Source: Verrucomicrobiaceae bacterium
GTDB taxonomy: Bacteria; Verrucomicrobiota; Verrucomicrobiia; Verrucomicrobiales; Akkermansiaceae
Assembly: GCA_009937455.1 (NCBI GenBank)
Contig: JAACFN010000004.1
Location: forward strand, 1 to 33,899
Reading direction: 5' to 3'
DNA length: 33,899 bases
The translations under genes and the position numbers were made by a program. Under the pieces are notes generated by a model. That model ran no database searches. It had not been told where the DNA came from and saw only the letters and a program-made list of their open reading frames with translations. How positions within the stretch are numbered: the first letter of the stretch is position 1; each line of letters begins with the position of its first letter. Shown in pieces: positions 8,882 through 18,459 of the stretch.

Positions 8882-9736
8882 TCAATCTCGCCCCCAGCCT
8901 AATTTTTGCCGCAGTGTTGAGTAGAAATTACGGCCTTCTAGGCGAAGTAGCGGCAAAGCGTGCCCAGCTTGCTCGACTTGGATGCGATCGCCTTGATTAA
9001 TCGCCATGACATCACGACCATCTACGGTGAGAAACATCGGGCATTCTGCATTCTCCGCGGGGGCAAGCTCAACCAATGAGCTGTGTGAAACCACCAGAGA
9101 CCGGTTGCTCAGTGAGTGAGGGCAAATTGGGGTGATCACAAAAACTTCAGCTTTTGGAGCTATGAGCGGCCCACCTGCAGAGAGCGAATATGCTGTTGAC
9201 CCTGTAGTGGTGGCAACAATCAAACCGTCTGCACGATAGTGGTTGAGTAACTCGCCGTCTACCCAGGCATCCAGCTCAACAAGGCGCCCAGTTTGACCAC
9301 GCGCAAGGGTGACCTCATTGAGGGCCCGAAAGCTCTTCTGTTCACCATTAGCCGATGTAATGGTTGCGCGTAGTTGCATGCGTTTGATCAGGGTGTAGTC
9401 TTTTTGAGCGACGGCTTTGGCAAAGATATCGAGCTCGCTGTCAGTGCATGTCGTGAGGAATCCCAACGTTCCCACATTAATTCCCGCGACAGGGATGTCA
9501 GCTGGTCCGAGCTGATTGGCGGCATTCAGCATGGTGCCGTCACCTCCTAATACGGCGACGAGGTCGCAGGTGGCTGCCAGCTCCTTGGGCGCGATACCTC
9601 CAGCTGCATTGATTATTTCCGCAGTGGCGGTTTCAAGTACCGGCGTAAGTTTTTCACGCTCAAGAGATCTACAGAGATTCTTGATGATTTGATCTACCCC
9701 TTTTTTATTCGGGTTTGCGAGGATGCCTACTTTCAC
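8882..9736 (-). CDS. nadK: NAD kinase
   Basis: VAVLGGDGTMLNAANQL (GGDG), NVGTLGFLT, GLIVATTTGSTAYSLSAGGPLIAP. Confidence 0.93.
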   Translation of the reverse strand: MKVGILANPNKKGVDQIIKNLCRSLEREKLTPVLETATAEIINAAGGIAPKELAATCDLVAVLGGDGTMLNAANQLGPADIPVAGINVGTLGFLTTCTDSELDIFAKAVAQKDYTLIKRMQLRATITSANGEQKSFRALNEVTLARGQTGRLVELDAWVDGELLNHYRADGLIVATTTGSTAYSLSAGGPLIAPKAEVFVITPICPHSLSNRSLVVSHSSLVELAPAENAECPMFLTVDGRDVMAINQGDRIQVEQAGHALPLLRLEGRNFYSTLRQKLGWGRD

Positions 9737-9845: not shown

Positions 9846-10424
9846 ATGAAACATTGTAGATCTGCTTCTAAACCAACAAATAAGTTTACACATCGAAGGG
9901 CGGTTCTTCTGGGCGCAACATGTCTTCTCACAATGAGTTCCTGTAACAAAATGAGCGAGCTGGTGGATCGTATCAAGGATATGGGAGGCCAGGGGAGTAG
10001 TCATTCGACGGTGGACGCCATGAATCAGAAGGAGGCGCAGGCTCTGATTGCTAATGAATCAAAGCTGGTGATGGTGGAATTTTACACCGATACGTGAGGA
10101 CCCTGTAAATCTTTTGCTCCCGTGCTGGAGCAGCTCGCAAAGGTGAACGCCAAAAAAGTTCGTATTGTAAAAGTGAATGCAAACCAAAATCTTGAATGGA
10201 TGAGGCAAGAAAATATTCGTGGAGTGCCAACGGTTCAGTTTTATCTCAAAGGAAAGAAAGTGCACCAGTTTTCAGGCTCTTATCCCAAGGATGTTGTCCA
10301 GCAGCAGATTGACCTGCATGCTGCTTCTTGGGGAAAGGAGACCGATGAAGACGGCAACCCCATCATGCCTGCCATCCAGCCAATGCCCAAAGAATGGATG
10401 CCTCCCGGAGTGACGCCGGAGTGA
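9846..10424 (+). CDS. candidate selenoprotein: thioredoxin-fold lipoprotein with UGPC active site (TGA at 10095-10097 read as Sec), 192 aa
   Basis: ORF 9846..10097 (MKHCRSASKPTNKFTHRRAVLLGATCLLTMSSCNK...SKLVMVEFYTDT) and its in-frame continuation (GPCKSFAPVLEQLAKVNAKKVRIVKVNANQNLEWMRQENIRGVPTVQFYLKGKKVHQFSGSYP...) form one complete thioredoxin domain. The TGA falls on the first Cys position of CGPC. Confidence 0.78.
10114..10133 (+). promoter_or_regulatory. putative bacterial SECIS hairpin
   Basis: U-UGCUCC-[CGUGCU]-GGAGCA-G: 6 Watson-Crick pairs plus one closing U-G wobble, 6-nt loop with G in the first two positions. 23 nt separate the UGA and the loop. Confidence 0.65.
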
Positions 10425-10565: not shown

Positions 10566-13274
10566 ATGAGCGAGGAAGCAAAAAACTACAAGGACACCCT
10601 TAGTCTGCCTGAGACTACTTTCCCCATGCGCGGGGATTTGGTAAAAAATGAACCCAAGCGTCTTGAGCGCTGGAATGATCAGGGTCTTTACCAAAGCATT
10701 CAGAAACGCCGTAAAGATCAAGGCGCGCCACGTTTTATTCTTCATGATGGACCGCCCTTTGCGAATGGTGATGTGCATATGGGCACAGCTTTGAACAAGG
10801 TGCTCAAGGATCTGGTGTTGAAATCTAAGACAATGGCAGGCTTTGAGACGCCTTATATCCCGGGTTGGGATTGTCACGGACTTCCCATTGAGTTCAAGGT
10901 GATGCAAGACGCGAGAAATGAGGAACCTGCTGAGGTGCGCCGGCGTTGTTCCGAATTTGCCCGTGGTTTCATTGATATTCAGCGAGAGAGTTTTCGCCGC
11001 CTCGGAGTATTTGGTGATTGGGAGAACCCTTATTTGACACTCGATCCTACCTATGAGGCCGACATCATCAGGACTTTTGGTAAGCTTGTTGAAATGGATG
11101 CTGTCTACCAGAGTCGCAAGCCTGTGCTTTGGAGTTATGGGGCAGGAACGGCACTTGCTGAGGCCGAGGTGGAGTATTTAGATAAAAAGAGCATGGCGGT
11201 ATACGTTCGCTTTGCACTTAACGATGCCAGCGGCGATCTTGCTGGCGCCTCTATGGTGATATGGACCACGACTCCATGGACTCTTCCCGCTAACCTTGGT
11301 ATCGCCGTTCACGAGCAGTTCAATTATGTATGTGGAACTTTTGTGCATGAGGATGGGCGCAAGCAGAAGCTCATTGTGGCCAAGGATTTGATCGATGATT
11401 TTGCAGCCAAGACGGGCTTTGTATTGAGCGAAACGCATTCCGGCTTCAAGGGCGGTGAGCTAGAGGGAATGCAAGCATCCCATCCATTTCTGCCACGCTC
11501 GGCGAAGATCATATTGGCGAATTTTGTGACGACGGAGACCGGAACGGGTGCCGTTCACATCGCTCCGGGTCACGGTGCAGATGACTATGTGGCTGGCCAG
11601 CAGAACGACCTAGGCCTCTTGTCCCCAGTGGATGCCGATGGTAAGTTTACAACGGAATGTGGTCTGGATGAATTGGTAGGACAGCACGTCTTCAAAACCA
11701 ACAAGCGTATTACAGAAATCCTCGAAGAGGGAGGGAACCTGCTTGGTAGTGAGCTCTACGAGCACCAATACCCGCATTGCTGGCGGTCGAAGACACCGAT
11801 TATTTTCCGTGCTGTTGAGCAATTCTTTATTTCGCTCAAAGACATTCGAGGCAAAGCCCTAGAGGAAATCGACAAGGTAGAATGGTTGCCTAAATGGGGC
11901 CGTAACCGCATATACGGCACGGTGGAGTCTAGGCCTGATTGGTGTATTTCACGGCAGCGTACCTGGGGTGTGCCATTGCCTGTTTTTTTCAATAAGGAGG
12001 GTGAAGCAATCATCAGCACTGAGCTGATTGCTAAAGTGGCTGATCTGGTTGAGCGTGAAGGAACCAATATTTGGTTTGAGCTTGATGATGCAGAGCTAGC
12101 AGCGCGTCTAGGCTTGCCAGAGGGCTGCACTAAATGCCGCGATACGCTTGATGTCTGGATCGACTCTGGCTCAAGTCATGTTGCGGTTATGGATCGGCAC
12201 CCGGAGCTTTCTGCGCCTGCAGATCTTTATTTGGAGGCAACAGACCAGCACCGTGGATGGTTCCAGAGTTCGCTCATGCTTAGTGTGGCCGCTCGTGGTG
12301 CGGCCCCATACAAGGCGGTCATGACCCACGGATTTGTGGTGGATACCTCAGGTAAAAAAATATCGAAGTCCGGCAGCAAGCCGATTAATGCAAAGCATTA
12401 TTACGATCAGTTTGGCTCTGATATCGTGCGCCTTTGGGCGGCCTCGGTTGACTGGCAGACTGAGGTTCCTTTTTCAGACAAACTCTTCAAGCAAGTCACG
12501 GATCCATATCGCCGTTTGCGCAACACCCTGCGTATTTTATTGGGTAACATCAATGGCTTTGATGCGAATACTCAGTCTGTTTCGAAGGAGGAAATGACCC
12601 TGCTTGATCGTTGGGTTCTTGAGCGTCTCAACGGGGTGATTTCAGAATGCAGTAAGGCCTATGACGCATATCAGTTCCGCAAGGTGTTCAATGAGATTAA
12701 CCAATTCTGTGCCCATGAGCTCAGTGCGCTCTATATTGATATCACCAAAGATAGAATGTATTGTGATGCTCTAGATTCTAAGCGCCGTCTTGCAGCGCAG
12801 ACAGTCATGTATCGTGTGTTTGATGCAGTGTGTCGCTTGATAGCGCCAATTCTTGCATTCACAGCGGATGAAGCGTGGGAGCATGCTGGTAATGAGGGCA
12901 GTATTCATGAGCAGGATTTCCCAGTAGTCGATCCAGATTTTCAATCTGGTGAGGCGGTAGCTCAGATTGATGTGCTCTTGGAATTACGAGCAGTCATTCA
13001 GACGGCGATCGAGAGGGAAGTGCAGGCCAAAGCTTTCAATAAAAACAATGAAGCGCACGTCACGGTGACCCTTCCCGAAACCCACCCTAGTCGAGCGCTT
13101 TTGGCGGACAGAGATTTTGTCACTGAGTTTTTCATACTGGCGGATCTTCAGCTAGAGATTGGAGCTGACATCACAGCCACGGCTAAAGCCACGGATCACT
13201 CCATGTGTCCACGATGCCGTAGGTATGAGCCACTGGTTACTGAGCTCTGCAGCCGTTGTAGTGAGGTTGTCTAG
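10566..13274 (+). CDS. ileS: isoleucyl-tRNA synthetase
   Basis: 902 aa; LHDGPPFANGDVHMGTALNKVLKD (HIGH region), PGWDCHGLPIE, KKISKSGSK (KMSKS), C-terminal CPRC...CSRC zinc motif. Confidence 0.97.
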   Translation: MSEEAKNYKDTLSLPETTFPMRGDLVKNEPKRLERWNDQGLYQSIQKRRKDQGAPRFILHDGPPFANGDVHMGTALNKVLKDLVLKSKTMAGFETPYIPGWDCHGLPIEFKVMQDARNEEPAEVRRRCSEFARGFIDIQRESFRRLGVFGDWENPYLTLDPTYEADIIRTFGKLVEMDAVYQSRKPVLWSYGAGTALAEAEVEYLDKKSMAVYVRFALNDASGDLAGASMVIWTTTPWTLPANLGIAVHEQFNYVCGTFVHEDGRKQKLIVAKDLIDDFAAKTGFVLSETHSGFKGGELEGMQASHPFLPRSAKIILANFVTTETGTGAVHIAPGHGADDYVAGQQNDLGLLSPVDADGKFTTECGLDELVGQHVFKTNKRITEILEEGGNLLGSELYEHQYPHCWRSKTPIIFRAVEQFFISLKDIRGKALEEIDKVEWLPKWGRNRIYGTVESRPDWCISRQRTWGVPLPVFFNKEGEAIISTELIAKVADLVEREGTNIWFELDDAELAARLGLPEGCTKCRDTLDVWIDSGSSHVAVMDRHPELSAPADLYLEATDQHRGWFQSSLMLSVAARGAAPYKAVMTHGFVVDTSGKKISKSGSKPINAKHYYDQFGSDIVRLWAASVDWQTEVPFSDKLFKQVTDPYRRLRNTLRILLGNINGFDANTQSVSKEEMTLLDRWVLERLNGVISECSKAYDAYQFRKVFNEINQFCAHELSALYIDITKDRMYCDALDSKRRLAAQTVMYRVFDAVCRLIAPILAFTADEAWEHAGNEGSIHEQDFPVVDPDFQSGEAVAQIDVLLELRAVIQTAIEREVQAKAFNKNNEAHVTVTLPETHPSRALLADRDFVTEFFILADLQLEIGADITATAKATDHSMCPRCRRYEPLVTELCSRCSEVV

Positions 13275-13309: not shown

Positions 13310-13960
13310 ATGAACAAGAATTTATCCAACGAAAAATTGGTAAGGCAGGTGCTATACATCACTGTTCCGCTTTATATTCTGGATCAGATATCGAAGTGGT
13401 GGGTGGTCATGAGCTTTAAGGTTCCTTTTGTCCTTCATGAGGGAAACAAATATTTTGTCCAAGAGGACACACGCCCAGTCATTGAAGGGTTTTTCAACCT
13501 AGTAAGGCGTCACAATCAAGGAGTTGCTTTTGGTATAGGCAATGGCACGACGTGGGCTCCTGTTGTATTCCTTCTGGCGCTGGTCATCGCGCTTTTTCTG
13601 ATTATGTTTTTTTGGAAAAGGGGCGCTTTTGAGGGCCCGTCGCGTTGGTCTGCGCCTCTGCTTTTGGCCGGCATTCTCGGTAACTTAACAGACCGTTTGT
13701 TCCAAGGTTTTTGGCTTGAGGCATATTCAGATGCCGGCTTCTGGCAACGTCTAGGGCAGGGCTATGTAGTTGATTTTCTCGATTTCAAGCTGCCTCTTTA
13801 TGATAAAATCATGCCCTCGAGTGGCGGCCACTGGCCGGCGTTCAATGTGGCAGACAGTTGTATATCAGTCGCGGCAACGCTCTTATTTTTGACAGCGATC
13901 ATTGAGATTAAAAAAGAGATGGCTGAGAAAAAAGCGACCAAAAACAAGCCGGTTCAATAA
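13310..13960 (+). CDS. lspA: lipoprotein signal peptidase (signal peptidase II)
   Basis: LDQISKWWV, NLVRRHNQGVAFGI, GILGNLTDRLFQGF, VVDFLDF..FNVADSCIS (catalytic Asp motifs); directly downstream of ileS. Confidence 0.92.
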   Translation: MNKNLSNEKLVRQVLYITVPLYILDQISKWWVVMSFKVPFVLHEGNKYFVQEDTRPVIEGFFNLVRRHNQGVAFGIGNGTTWAPVVFLLALVIALFLIMFFWKRGAFEGPSRWSAPLLLAGILGNLTDRLFQGFWLEAYSDAGFWQRLGQGYVVDFLDFKLPLYDKIMPSSGGHWPAFNVADSCISVAATLLFLTAIIEIKKEMAEKKATKNKPVQ

Positions 13961-16071: not shown

Positions 16072-18459
16072 TTATTTTGAGTCGTTTGCATTTGGTTCGT
16101 TGTTGCCGACTGCTTTTTCTACCTTACGAATGGCTCGTTCCGCATAGTCAATAATACGGTCACTCTCACCTTTGGTGAAGGGGCTGAGTAGAGGAATCGC
16201 CCATTCGTATTTCTGCATAGCAAGTCCTCCGATGATGAATTCTTTTTCAGCATCAGTTTCCGCTGTATTAGTCAGTGCTTGCCATAGATTTTTCAGTTCA
16301 TCAGAATCTCGGTCACGCGCGGTATTGAGAATTTCATCAATGGTTTTATACGCATCCTTGCGCATCGTTTTGTTTTTTGGATTCTTTAAAAACTCGATAA
16401 GGGTAGGTATTTTTTCGTCATTTCCCAATTTGCCAAGTGCAGTAAGGGCCGCATTTTGATAGGCCGGATTCCCTGAATTGAGGGCATCATTGATCGCATT
16501 CTCTGCCAAATCATCACCTGTGGCGCCGAGGATACGCAGCATTGAAAGTTTGATGTTTTCGTCCTGGGCACTCTCATAGGAATCATAAATATCGCTTTCA
16601 TAGCTTGCGCCTTTGGAAGATGCTTGAATGATTGAGAGCAAGGCCATCTCTGCAGCTCTACGTACTGAGGGATATTCTGAATTCTTGACCAAGCCGAGAA
16701 GGTCTTTGACATAATCGCCAGCTTTCGGGTCAGCGTGGCATGACCGGATAGCGTAGATTGCGGCAGCAGCGGAATCTTCCTCGGAGCTTTCTTTGGCGTA
16801 ATCAATAAGGGCCTGGAGATTTTTTGACTTTGCTTGGAATCCGATGACATCCTTTAGCAGACCAGAACGTATGCTAGACGGACATTTTGCATTAAGGGTG
16901 TGATTAAGGATGATAGTGGAGAGATCGTAGCCGCCGTCAGCTTTCGCAAAACGCAGGACTTGCAGTATGAGTGGCTTCTGCTTGTTTTCTTGCATGCTTG
17001 TAGCCTCGTTGAGAATCCGTTTGAGCTCTGGCTCGGTCAAAAGAATGCCATCGAGCGCTAGTTTACTTATGCCTTCATCGCTTTCATCATCATTGAGGGT
17101 TTTTGCCTCTTTCATCACCTCATTATAGAGGTTATCAAGTTTGCGTTTTTCCATGTAAGACCTGCCCAAAACACCAGCAAGGATGACCACGGCTATGAGC
17201 ATACTGATGAGAGCCCATTTTGCACCATTGGAGAGGGTCCTCTGTGCGCTATCCATGCCCAGTGCTGAATCGCCTGGGATGGAGCCTCCGCCCTGAGCTG
17301 CGCTTGCAGGTTTTGTCATGGGCTGGGCTTTGATCTTAGCCGTTTGGGCGCCCTTTGTGTCAGCTTCTGTTGGCTTGTTGACCTTGATGGTAGGTGGGGC
17401 AGCTTCCATTTCAACGGTAGGCGTGGCCATTTTAACCGTTGGGGCAGCCATTTTAACGGTTGGGGCAGCCATTTTAACCGTTGGGGCAGCCATTTTAACC
17501 GTTGGGGCGGCCATTTTAACGGTAGGTGCTGCTTGGGCAACTGGATCAGTGGTCGTCTTGGCAACGGGAGTTTGGTTAGTAAGAAGCTTGGCCGTGGGGA
17601 CGGGTCCGGTTGGCAGGGTGGCTGACATGGGCTCATTTTCCATGGCGAAGAAGCGTTCCAGTGCTTCACGTGCGTTGAACGGCCTTTGGTCCACTTGGCG
17701 CTCGATATGCCACATGATCCAATCAGCGCCCCATTGAGGAATGTCTTGCCTCAGTTCTTGGATCGGAGTGACGTGGTGCTGAAGGTGGCTGATCATGACC
17801 TGGGCGGCACTCTCTCCATCAAAAGGATGTTTGCCGGTAAGTGCATAATAAAAGAGGCAGCCGAGAGCATACATATCGGTGCGCTGGTCCAGAGGTGTAC
17901 GTTCAAATTGCTCTGGGGCCATGAAGAAAATTGAGCCAAATACAGCATCGCCATGGTCAATGGTCTGTAAGGACGGAGATGATGAGAATTTAGCGAGTCC
18001 AAAGTCTACGATTTTGACCTGAAACTTTCCGGATGGTAGCCAGCATATCATGAGATTGCTGGGCTTAAGATCACGGTGGATAAGATTCAGATTCTGTGCT
18101 GCGGCCAGTGCTTCCTCGGATTGTAAGATGATCTCGCGCAGGTCGTCCCAGGTGAGTGTGTTTTCTTCAACCATCTCATCAAGAGTGCGGCCGTTGATGA
18201 GCTCCATGACCACGTAGGGGCCATCGTCATCTATTCCGGCATCATAGATCGTTACGATGTTTGGATGCTGAATAGAAGAGAGTGCGGTGGCTTCTTTGAG
18301 GAGGTTTTTGGTGGCTTCCTCTTGGTCTTCGTGTCCTCCGTCGGCGAGCACGCGCTTGATGGCGACTTCTCTATTTAGCTGTGTATCGAAAGCCCGATAA
18401 ACAGAACCAACCCCCCCCTGGCCAATTTTCCCTTTAATTTCGTATCGCTCTTTGCTCAT
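16072..18459 (-). CDS. transmembrane Ser/Thr protein kinase with C-terminal HEAT-like repeats
   Basis: YEIKGKIGQGGVGSVYRAFDTQLNREVAIKRV, LIHRDLKPSNLMI, IVDFGLAKF, APEQF; TM helix WALISMLIAVVILAGVLG; C-terminal helical repeats (NAALTALGKLGNDEKIPTLIEFLKNP). Confidence 0.92.
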   Translation of the reverse strand: MSKERYEIKGKIGQGGVGSVYRAFDTQLNREVAIKRVLADGGHEDQEEATKNLLKEATALSSIQHPNIVTIYDAGIDDDGPYVVMELINGRTLDEMVEENTLTWDDLREIILQSEEALAAAQNLNLIHRDLKPSNLMICWLPSGKFQVKIVDFGLAKFSSSPSLQTIDHGDAVFGSIFFMAPEQFERTPLDQRTDMYALGCLFYYALTGKHPFDGESAAQVMISHLQHHVTPIQELRQDIPQWGADWIMWHIERQVDQRPFNAREALERFFAMENEPMSATLPTGPVPTAKLLTNQTPVAKTTTDPVAQAAPTVKMAAPTVKMAAPTVKMAAPTVKMAAPTVKMATPTVEMEAAPPTIKVNKPTEADTKGAQTAKIKAQPMTKPASAAQGGGSIPGDSALGMDSAQRTLSNGAKWALISMLIAVVILAGVLGRSYMEKRKLDNLYNEVMKEAKTLNDDESDEGISKLALDGILLTEPELKRILNEATSMQENKQKPLILQVLRFAKADGGYDLSTIILNHTLNAKCPSSIRSGLLKDVIGFQAKSKNLQALIDYAKESSEEDSAAAAIYAIRSCHADPKAGDYVKDLLGLVKNSEYPSVRRAAEMALLSIIQASSKGASYESDIYDSYESAQDENIKLSMLRILGATGDDLAENAINDALNSGNPAYQNAALTALGKLGNDEKIPTLIEFLKNPKNKTMRKDAYKTIDEILNTARDRDSDELKNLWQALTNTAETDAEKEFIIGGLAMQKYEWAIPLLSPFTKGESDRIIDYAERAIRKVEKAVGNNEPNANDSK
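17426..17530 (-). repeat. 21-bp tandem repeat encoding (M/A)AAPTVK units in the kinase linker
   Basis: gccattttaaccgttggggca repeated about 5 times at 21-bp spacing (starts at 17426, 17447, 17468, 17489, 17510). Confidence 0.92.

Follow-up and report, generated by a model that had tools for sequence, protein, structure and literature searches.

A probable selenocysteine-containing thioredoxin lipoprotein in a genus of Akkermansiaceae

The gene at positions 9846-10424 of the window, by which we mean the whole stretch of 33,899 nucleotides analysed here, is very probably a selenoprotein gene. The UGA at 10095-10097 would be decoded as selenocysteine (Sec) by SelB and tRNA-Sec, directed by a hairpin beginning 16 nt downstream of it. 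The product would be exported and anchored by a lipid at Cys33, and would serve as an extracytoplasmic thiol/disulfide (selenol/disulfide) reductase of the thioredoxin type, in which Sec84 would attack the substrate and Cys87 would resolve the mixed selenosulfide. A DsbD-type membrane reductase would most likely carry out the re-reduction. This reading draws on the frame, the conservation of the UGA, the covariation of the hairpin, the decoding machinery, the lipobox pattern and the predicted thioredoxin fold, all of which are seen in the sequences. The features of the locus are as follows.

8882-9736, minus strand: NAD kinase, the divergent neighbour (Pfam)
9846-10424, plus strand: predicted Sec-thioredoxin lipoprotein gene, 192 codons and a stop (frame through the TGA, Pfam Thioredoxin, genus orthologs)
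9846-9944, plus strand: predicted signal peptide with lipobox CLLTMSSC, the predicted lipidated Cys33 being encoded at 9942-9944 (lipobox pattern; Ser32 and Cys33 invariant in alignment A3)
10095-10097, plus strand: in-frame TGA, predicted Sec84, the nucleophile of UGPC (TGA in orthologs of 12 other genomes, TGT for Cys in G013, TCT for Ser in G003)
10104-10106, plus strand: resolving Cys87 of the UxxC motif (invariant in A3)
10114-10133, plus strand: SECIS-like hairpin UUGCUCC-CGUGCU-GGAGCAG, apical loop at 10121-10126 (RNAalifold, covariation, invariance of the loop codons)
10227-10229, plus strand: cis-Pro128 (GVPT), a thioredoxin signature (invariant in A3)
10383-10412, plus strand: codons of the C-terminal tail MPKEWMPPGV (A3; kept in Sec and Cys members of this thioredoxin family)
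10422-10424, plus strand: true stop codon (TGA in the window, TAA or TAG in several orthologs)
10566-13274, plus strand: isoleucyl-tRNA synthetase gene ileS, the downstream neighbour (Pfam class I tRNA synthetase)
13310-13960, plus strand: lspA, lipoprotein signal peptidase II (Pfam Peptidase_A8, E 1e-31)

Direct translation from the ATG at 9846 to the terminal TGA gives a single frame of 192 residues, of which the TGA at 10095-10097 is the sole interruption. When this codon is read as Sec, the frame contains neither a frameshift nor a further stop, and the translation is MKHCRSAS...LTMSSCNK...VEFYTDT-U-GPCKSFAPVLEQLA...GVPTVQFY...PMPKEWMPPGVTPE. The TGA occupies the nucleophilic first Cys position of the thioredoxin active site, which reads TUGPC. 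An earlier note on this DNA had described one reading frame, free of frameshifts and interrupted once, with the TGA exactly at the catalytic Cys, and the reading of the window agrees; its assignment of a WCGPC-type site holds for the nucleophilic position and fails for the residue in front of it, which is Thr and not Trp. The ORF list splits the gene into 9846-10097 and 10122-10424, as the note had also remarked, and gene callers would truncate this gene at the UGA. The terminal TGA was considered as a second Sec codon and rejected on account of the TAA and TAG codons at that site in several orthologs.

In the following, G000 denotes the genome of the window, G000-G013 its genus, and G026 and G223 two further genera. 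Among 57 related genomes, orthologs with one internal TGA are present in G000, G001, G002, G004-G010 and G012 of the genus, and in G026 of another; the TGA lies at the identical column in each ortholog that was read out, as UGPC or UPPC. A wider survey, covering 262 genomes of the family, together with one read-out, added G223, which represents a third genus and carries a UPPC form of the thioredoxin lipoprotein (L145, G223:C3:37700-38900). In total, 13 genomes from three genera carry UGA here, with protein identity down to about 33%. A chance stop is excluded: orthologs in 12 further genomes share the TGA, and their frames are otherwise undamaged. Many of the single-TGA flags raised in the broad searches, some of which were inspected, are probably the terminal stops of ordinary thioredoxins.

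The column is not occupied by Sec in every relative. In the congener G013 the codon is TGT (Cys, CGPC), and Cys encoded by TGT or TGC is found at the aligned position in G013, G019, G025 and others, including the wider Akkermansiaceae. Homologs with Cys or UGA at this column, proposed in the earlier note as a sign of a selenoprotein, are therefore both found among the orthologs. The congener G003 (L023, G003:C124) has TCT (Ser, SEPC), though its genome keeps selA, selB and a Sec-containing SelD; the function of this ortholog is possibly altered. In a maximum-likelihood tree sampled from the genus members and G026, with G223 left out, the 13 Sec, Cys and Ser members form one group with full support, apart from the outside Cys family. 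The tree requires three changes of state, and these fit a single gain of Sec with two losses. Two other genes with an in-frame TGA were encountered: a WUGPC thioredoxin, distinct from this one, in a separate family of the order (L080, G049:C69:36059-36337), and a paralog in G026 whose TGA lies off the usual active-site column (L076, G026:C45:96521-97099; CYKNR-U-GVLV).

The protein belongs to the thioredoxin family by sequence and by predicted fold. The match to Pfam Thioredoxin (PF00085, E 1e-23) covers residues 59-156 and bridges the TGA break, whereas the score for Thioredoxin_2 is far lower. The AlphaFold2 model is confident in the thioredoxin domain, with pLDDT >90 for about residues 61-160, and it superimposes on solved thioredoxins with a TM-score of up to 0.94, normalized by target length. 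The UxxC motif, the Cys87 and Pro128 invariant in A3, and the match of the fold to solved thioredoxins place the protein in PF00085. None of the NCBIfam models of June 2026 reaches its own cut-off on the window protein; the score for the TrxA equivalog TIGR01068 is 80.9 bits, below the curated cut-off of 96.8. Thr precedes the nucleophile in the UGA members of the genus, in G026 and in G223, in place of the Trp of the classical WCGPC site and of most Cys relatives. Compared with TrxA, the protein shares the fold, the CxxC position and the cis-Pro, but it is predicted to be exported and lipid-anchored.

The lipobox pattern, PROSITE PS51257, is matched by the window protein and by every UGA member tested, and Ser32 and Cys33 do not vary among the 12 aligned members (A3), whether these carry Sec, Cys or Ser. 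The conserved lipobox supports the membrane-anchored lipoprotein that the earlier note had deduced from LTMSSC. The lipobox signal peptide is accompanied by lspA, the gene of signal peptidase II, within the window, and LspA could process the predicted lipoprotein. A real Sec thioredoxin might instead have an ordinary cleaved signal peptide or another membrane anchor at its N-terminus, and would then be soluble in the periplasm or otherwise anchored. The localisation is a pattern prediction, and the residue at -3 in the window is Met, which is less usual in a lipobox; nevertheless, the retention of Cys33 and its preceding Ser in 12 of 12 members, together with the pattern in every UGA member tested, leaves this alternative only a small chance.

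The neighbourhood of the predicted lipoprotein gene is conserved across the genus. The order NAD kinase, thioredoxin, ileS is common to the congeners with fully read flanks, the Cys form of G013 (L022) included, and the Ser form of G003, which lies on a short contig, keeps ileS. G007 and G013 have a second, apparently related lipoprotein gene between the thioredoxin gene and ileS, on the strand of the former and with the same C-terminal tail motif (L020:2081-2770 and L022:2053-2739). Elsewhere in the window, a Ser/Thr kinase-like protein encoded on the minus strand (16072-18459) carries in its linker a tandem repeat of APTVKMA-type heptads, at 17316-17737.

The hairpin downstream of the UGA is conserved in structure. 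RNAalifold, applied to 12 orthologs, gives one helix that starts 16 nt past the UGA and pairs columns 20-26 with columns 33-39 around the six-base loop CGUGYU. When G223 is added, 94% of cells are paired, in comparison with 27-50% in slid versions. Compensatory changes, with both sides altered, occur in four of the seven stem pairs, and a few orthologs break one pair. The stem of G223 is almost wholly rewritten (UUUCCUC/GGGGAAA) with its pairing intact and the CGUG loop kept. The codons that hold the loop and the closing pairs are fixed, Pro92 being CCC and Val93 GTG in 12 of 12 orthologs; they are the only single-codon cases among the invariant four-fold degenerate residues, with between two and four codons found for each of the remaining invariant Pro, Val and Gly positions. 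Synonymous resampling of the fully paired rows tested yields the full stem in 1-3% of cases. The folding energy of the UGA region as a single sequence is not significant (z 0.48), and the hairpin alone is not unusually stable; the informative signal came from the cross-species comparison alone. In the Cys form of G013 the stem is retained and the loop is CACG, as expected of a decayed element.

In SECIS elements of the E. coli fdhF type, the hairpin lies shortly past the UGA and presents G and U in a small apical loop. The placement and the small G/U loop are alike in the window; the loop itself is CGUGYU here, GGUCU type in fdhF, and GGUU type in the SelD genes of the same genomes. The 16-nt spacing and the CGUGYU loop also agree with the description of the bacterial SECIS as a hairpin just past the UGA with a G in a small apical loop (PMC1088965).

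The earlier note had suggested that the genome be searched for selA, selB, selD and selC, and the outcome is favourable. G000 is a metagenome-assembled genome (MAG) of 2.04 Mb in 244 contigs, 84% complete. It encodes SelA and a tRNA-Sec (selC, 56.4 bits, anticodon TCA). Its SelD (L065, G000:C182:2974-3900) itself contains an in-frame TGA followed by a hairpin of its own, and is by sequence a selenoprotein. SelB scores above the cut-off in the 13 congeners; neither selB nor the SelB wing domain was found in the G000 assembly. The neighbours of selB in G004 match contig C138 of G000 as far as its last base, 13360. As C138 ends beside the selB locus, selB would lie beyond the contig break, and its absence from G000 most likely reflects an assembly gap.

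Bacteria show near-cognate readthrough of UGA, and the codon could conceivably have a general new meaning, such as Cys or Trp, or be passed by readthrough that inserts no selenium. We consider this very unlikely. Of the 20 long window ORFs checked, 11 end in TGA as their normal stop, and the codon is hence not generally reassigned; a dedicated tRNA-Sec, SelA and SelD are present in G000; a specific hairpin is under selection; and thioredoxin lineages without Sec use the Cys codons TGC or TGT.

A lone in-frame stop within an otherwise ordinary thioredoxin gene might also mark a pseudogene with a recent nonsense mutation. This is highly improbable, since the TGA is fixed at one codon over a divergence that reaches 33% identity, other lesions are absent, the hairpin covaries, and dN/dS is as low past the TGA as before it. 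In comparisons of G000 with its nearest relatives, dN/dS is 0.17-0.18 downstream of the UGA and 0.25-0.28 upstream, and the low downstream value indicates that this half is translated and useful. The scattered disabling mutations in relatives that the earlier note had named as a mark of a pseudogene are absent, and purifying selection is found instead. A TGC or TGT miscalled in sequencing or assembly, conceivable in a MAG of so many fragments, has a negligible probability as the source of the TGA, because the identical TGA occurs in 12 other separately assembled genomes, two of which are named public Akkermansiaceae MAGs of different origins (L010, L011).

A candidate electron donor for the predicted Sec thioredoxin is encoded on contig C126 of G000. 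By Pfam, this DsbD-like protein comprises DsbD_N, DsbD_TM and a thioredoxin domain. In its C-terminal thioredoxin domain, the position of the first Cys is taken by an in-frame TGA (DYTADW-U-LLC; L146:1861-1863, i.e. G000:C126:2860-2862), with a hairpin whose loop, CGUGU, is of the same CGUG type as that of the thioredoxin gene and unlike the GGUU-type loop of selD. Within the genus, six members have the Sec form of DsbD (G000, G003, G005, G009, G010 and G011) and six the Cys form (G002, G006, G007, G008, G012 and G013). The Sec/Cys states of the two proteins do not co-vary: G003 combines Sec-DsbD with a Ser thioredoxin, and G008 combines Cys-DsbD with a Sec thioredoxin. As there is no joint switching across the genus, the coupling of DsbD to the thioredoxin as its donor is conjectural. 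Tentatively, extracytoplasmic reduction in part of the lineage might depend on selenium twice in succession, electrons passing from a DsbD-like membrane reductase, Sec-bearing in the C-terminal thioredoxin domain, to a lipid-anchored Sec thioredoxin, with one CGUG loop type, distinct from that of selD, common to the two genes.

Sec thioredoxins of the PF00085, UxxC type were reported in the Sargasso Sea selenoproteome in 2005 (PMC1088965). By 2006 several bacteria were listed as having them (PMC1794560), and an inventory of 2026 includes them as well (PMC13188914); Treponema denticola and Geobacter are among the examples (PMC1088965, PMC1794560, PMC13188914). Word searches of these three papers returned no mention of Verrucomicrobiota. 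A phrase search of the open literature for a UGPC thioredoxin with selenocysteine found no paper, and a search of it for Verrucomicrobia or Akkermansiaceae selenoproteins returned mostly gut-microbiome papers, with none on this gene by title. The description of a new selenoprotein in the earlier note thus applies to the exported, lipobox-bearing lineage, which is well supported by the sequence comparisons and absent from the lists covered here, and not to the Sec-thioredoxin kind, established since about 2005. The lineage and the known Sec thioredoxins have in common an N-terminal Sec, a resolving Cys, widespread Cys homologs and a SECIS directly downstream; the lineage adds the lipobox signal peptide, the tail MPK-[DE]-W-[LM]-PPG, Thr for Trp before Sec, and UPPC besides UGPC. 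The Sec "thiol:disulfide interchange protein" (PF13098, UxxC; PMC13188914) is similar in its UxxC motif and in the extracytoplasmic thiol/disulfide chemistry implied by its name, but represents a different thioredoxin subfamily; the window protein scores far better on PF00085 than on Thioredoxin_2. The DsbD-like protein of G000 may be closer to this PF13098 protein.

The gene adds a predicted selenium-dependent exported oxidoreductase to the Akkermansiaceae. At this one gene and locus, the genus provides a small natural experiment, in which Sec is kept in most species and replaced by Cys in one and by Ser in another, and in which the Cys species retains the hairpin stem with the CGUG loop gone. 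The evolution of Sec use, and the benefit of selenium at the cell surface, become directly testable in this genus.
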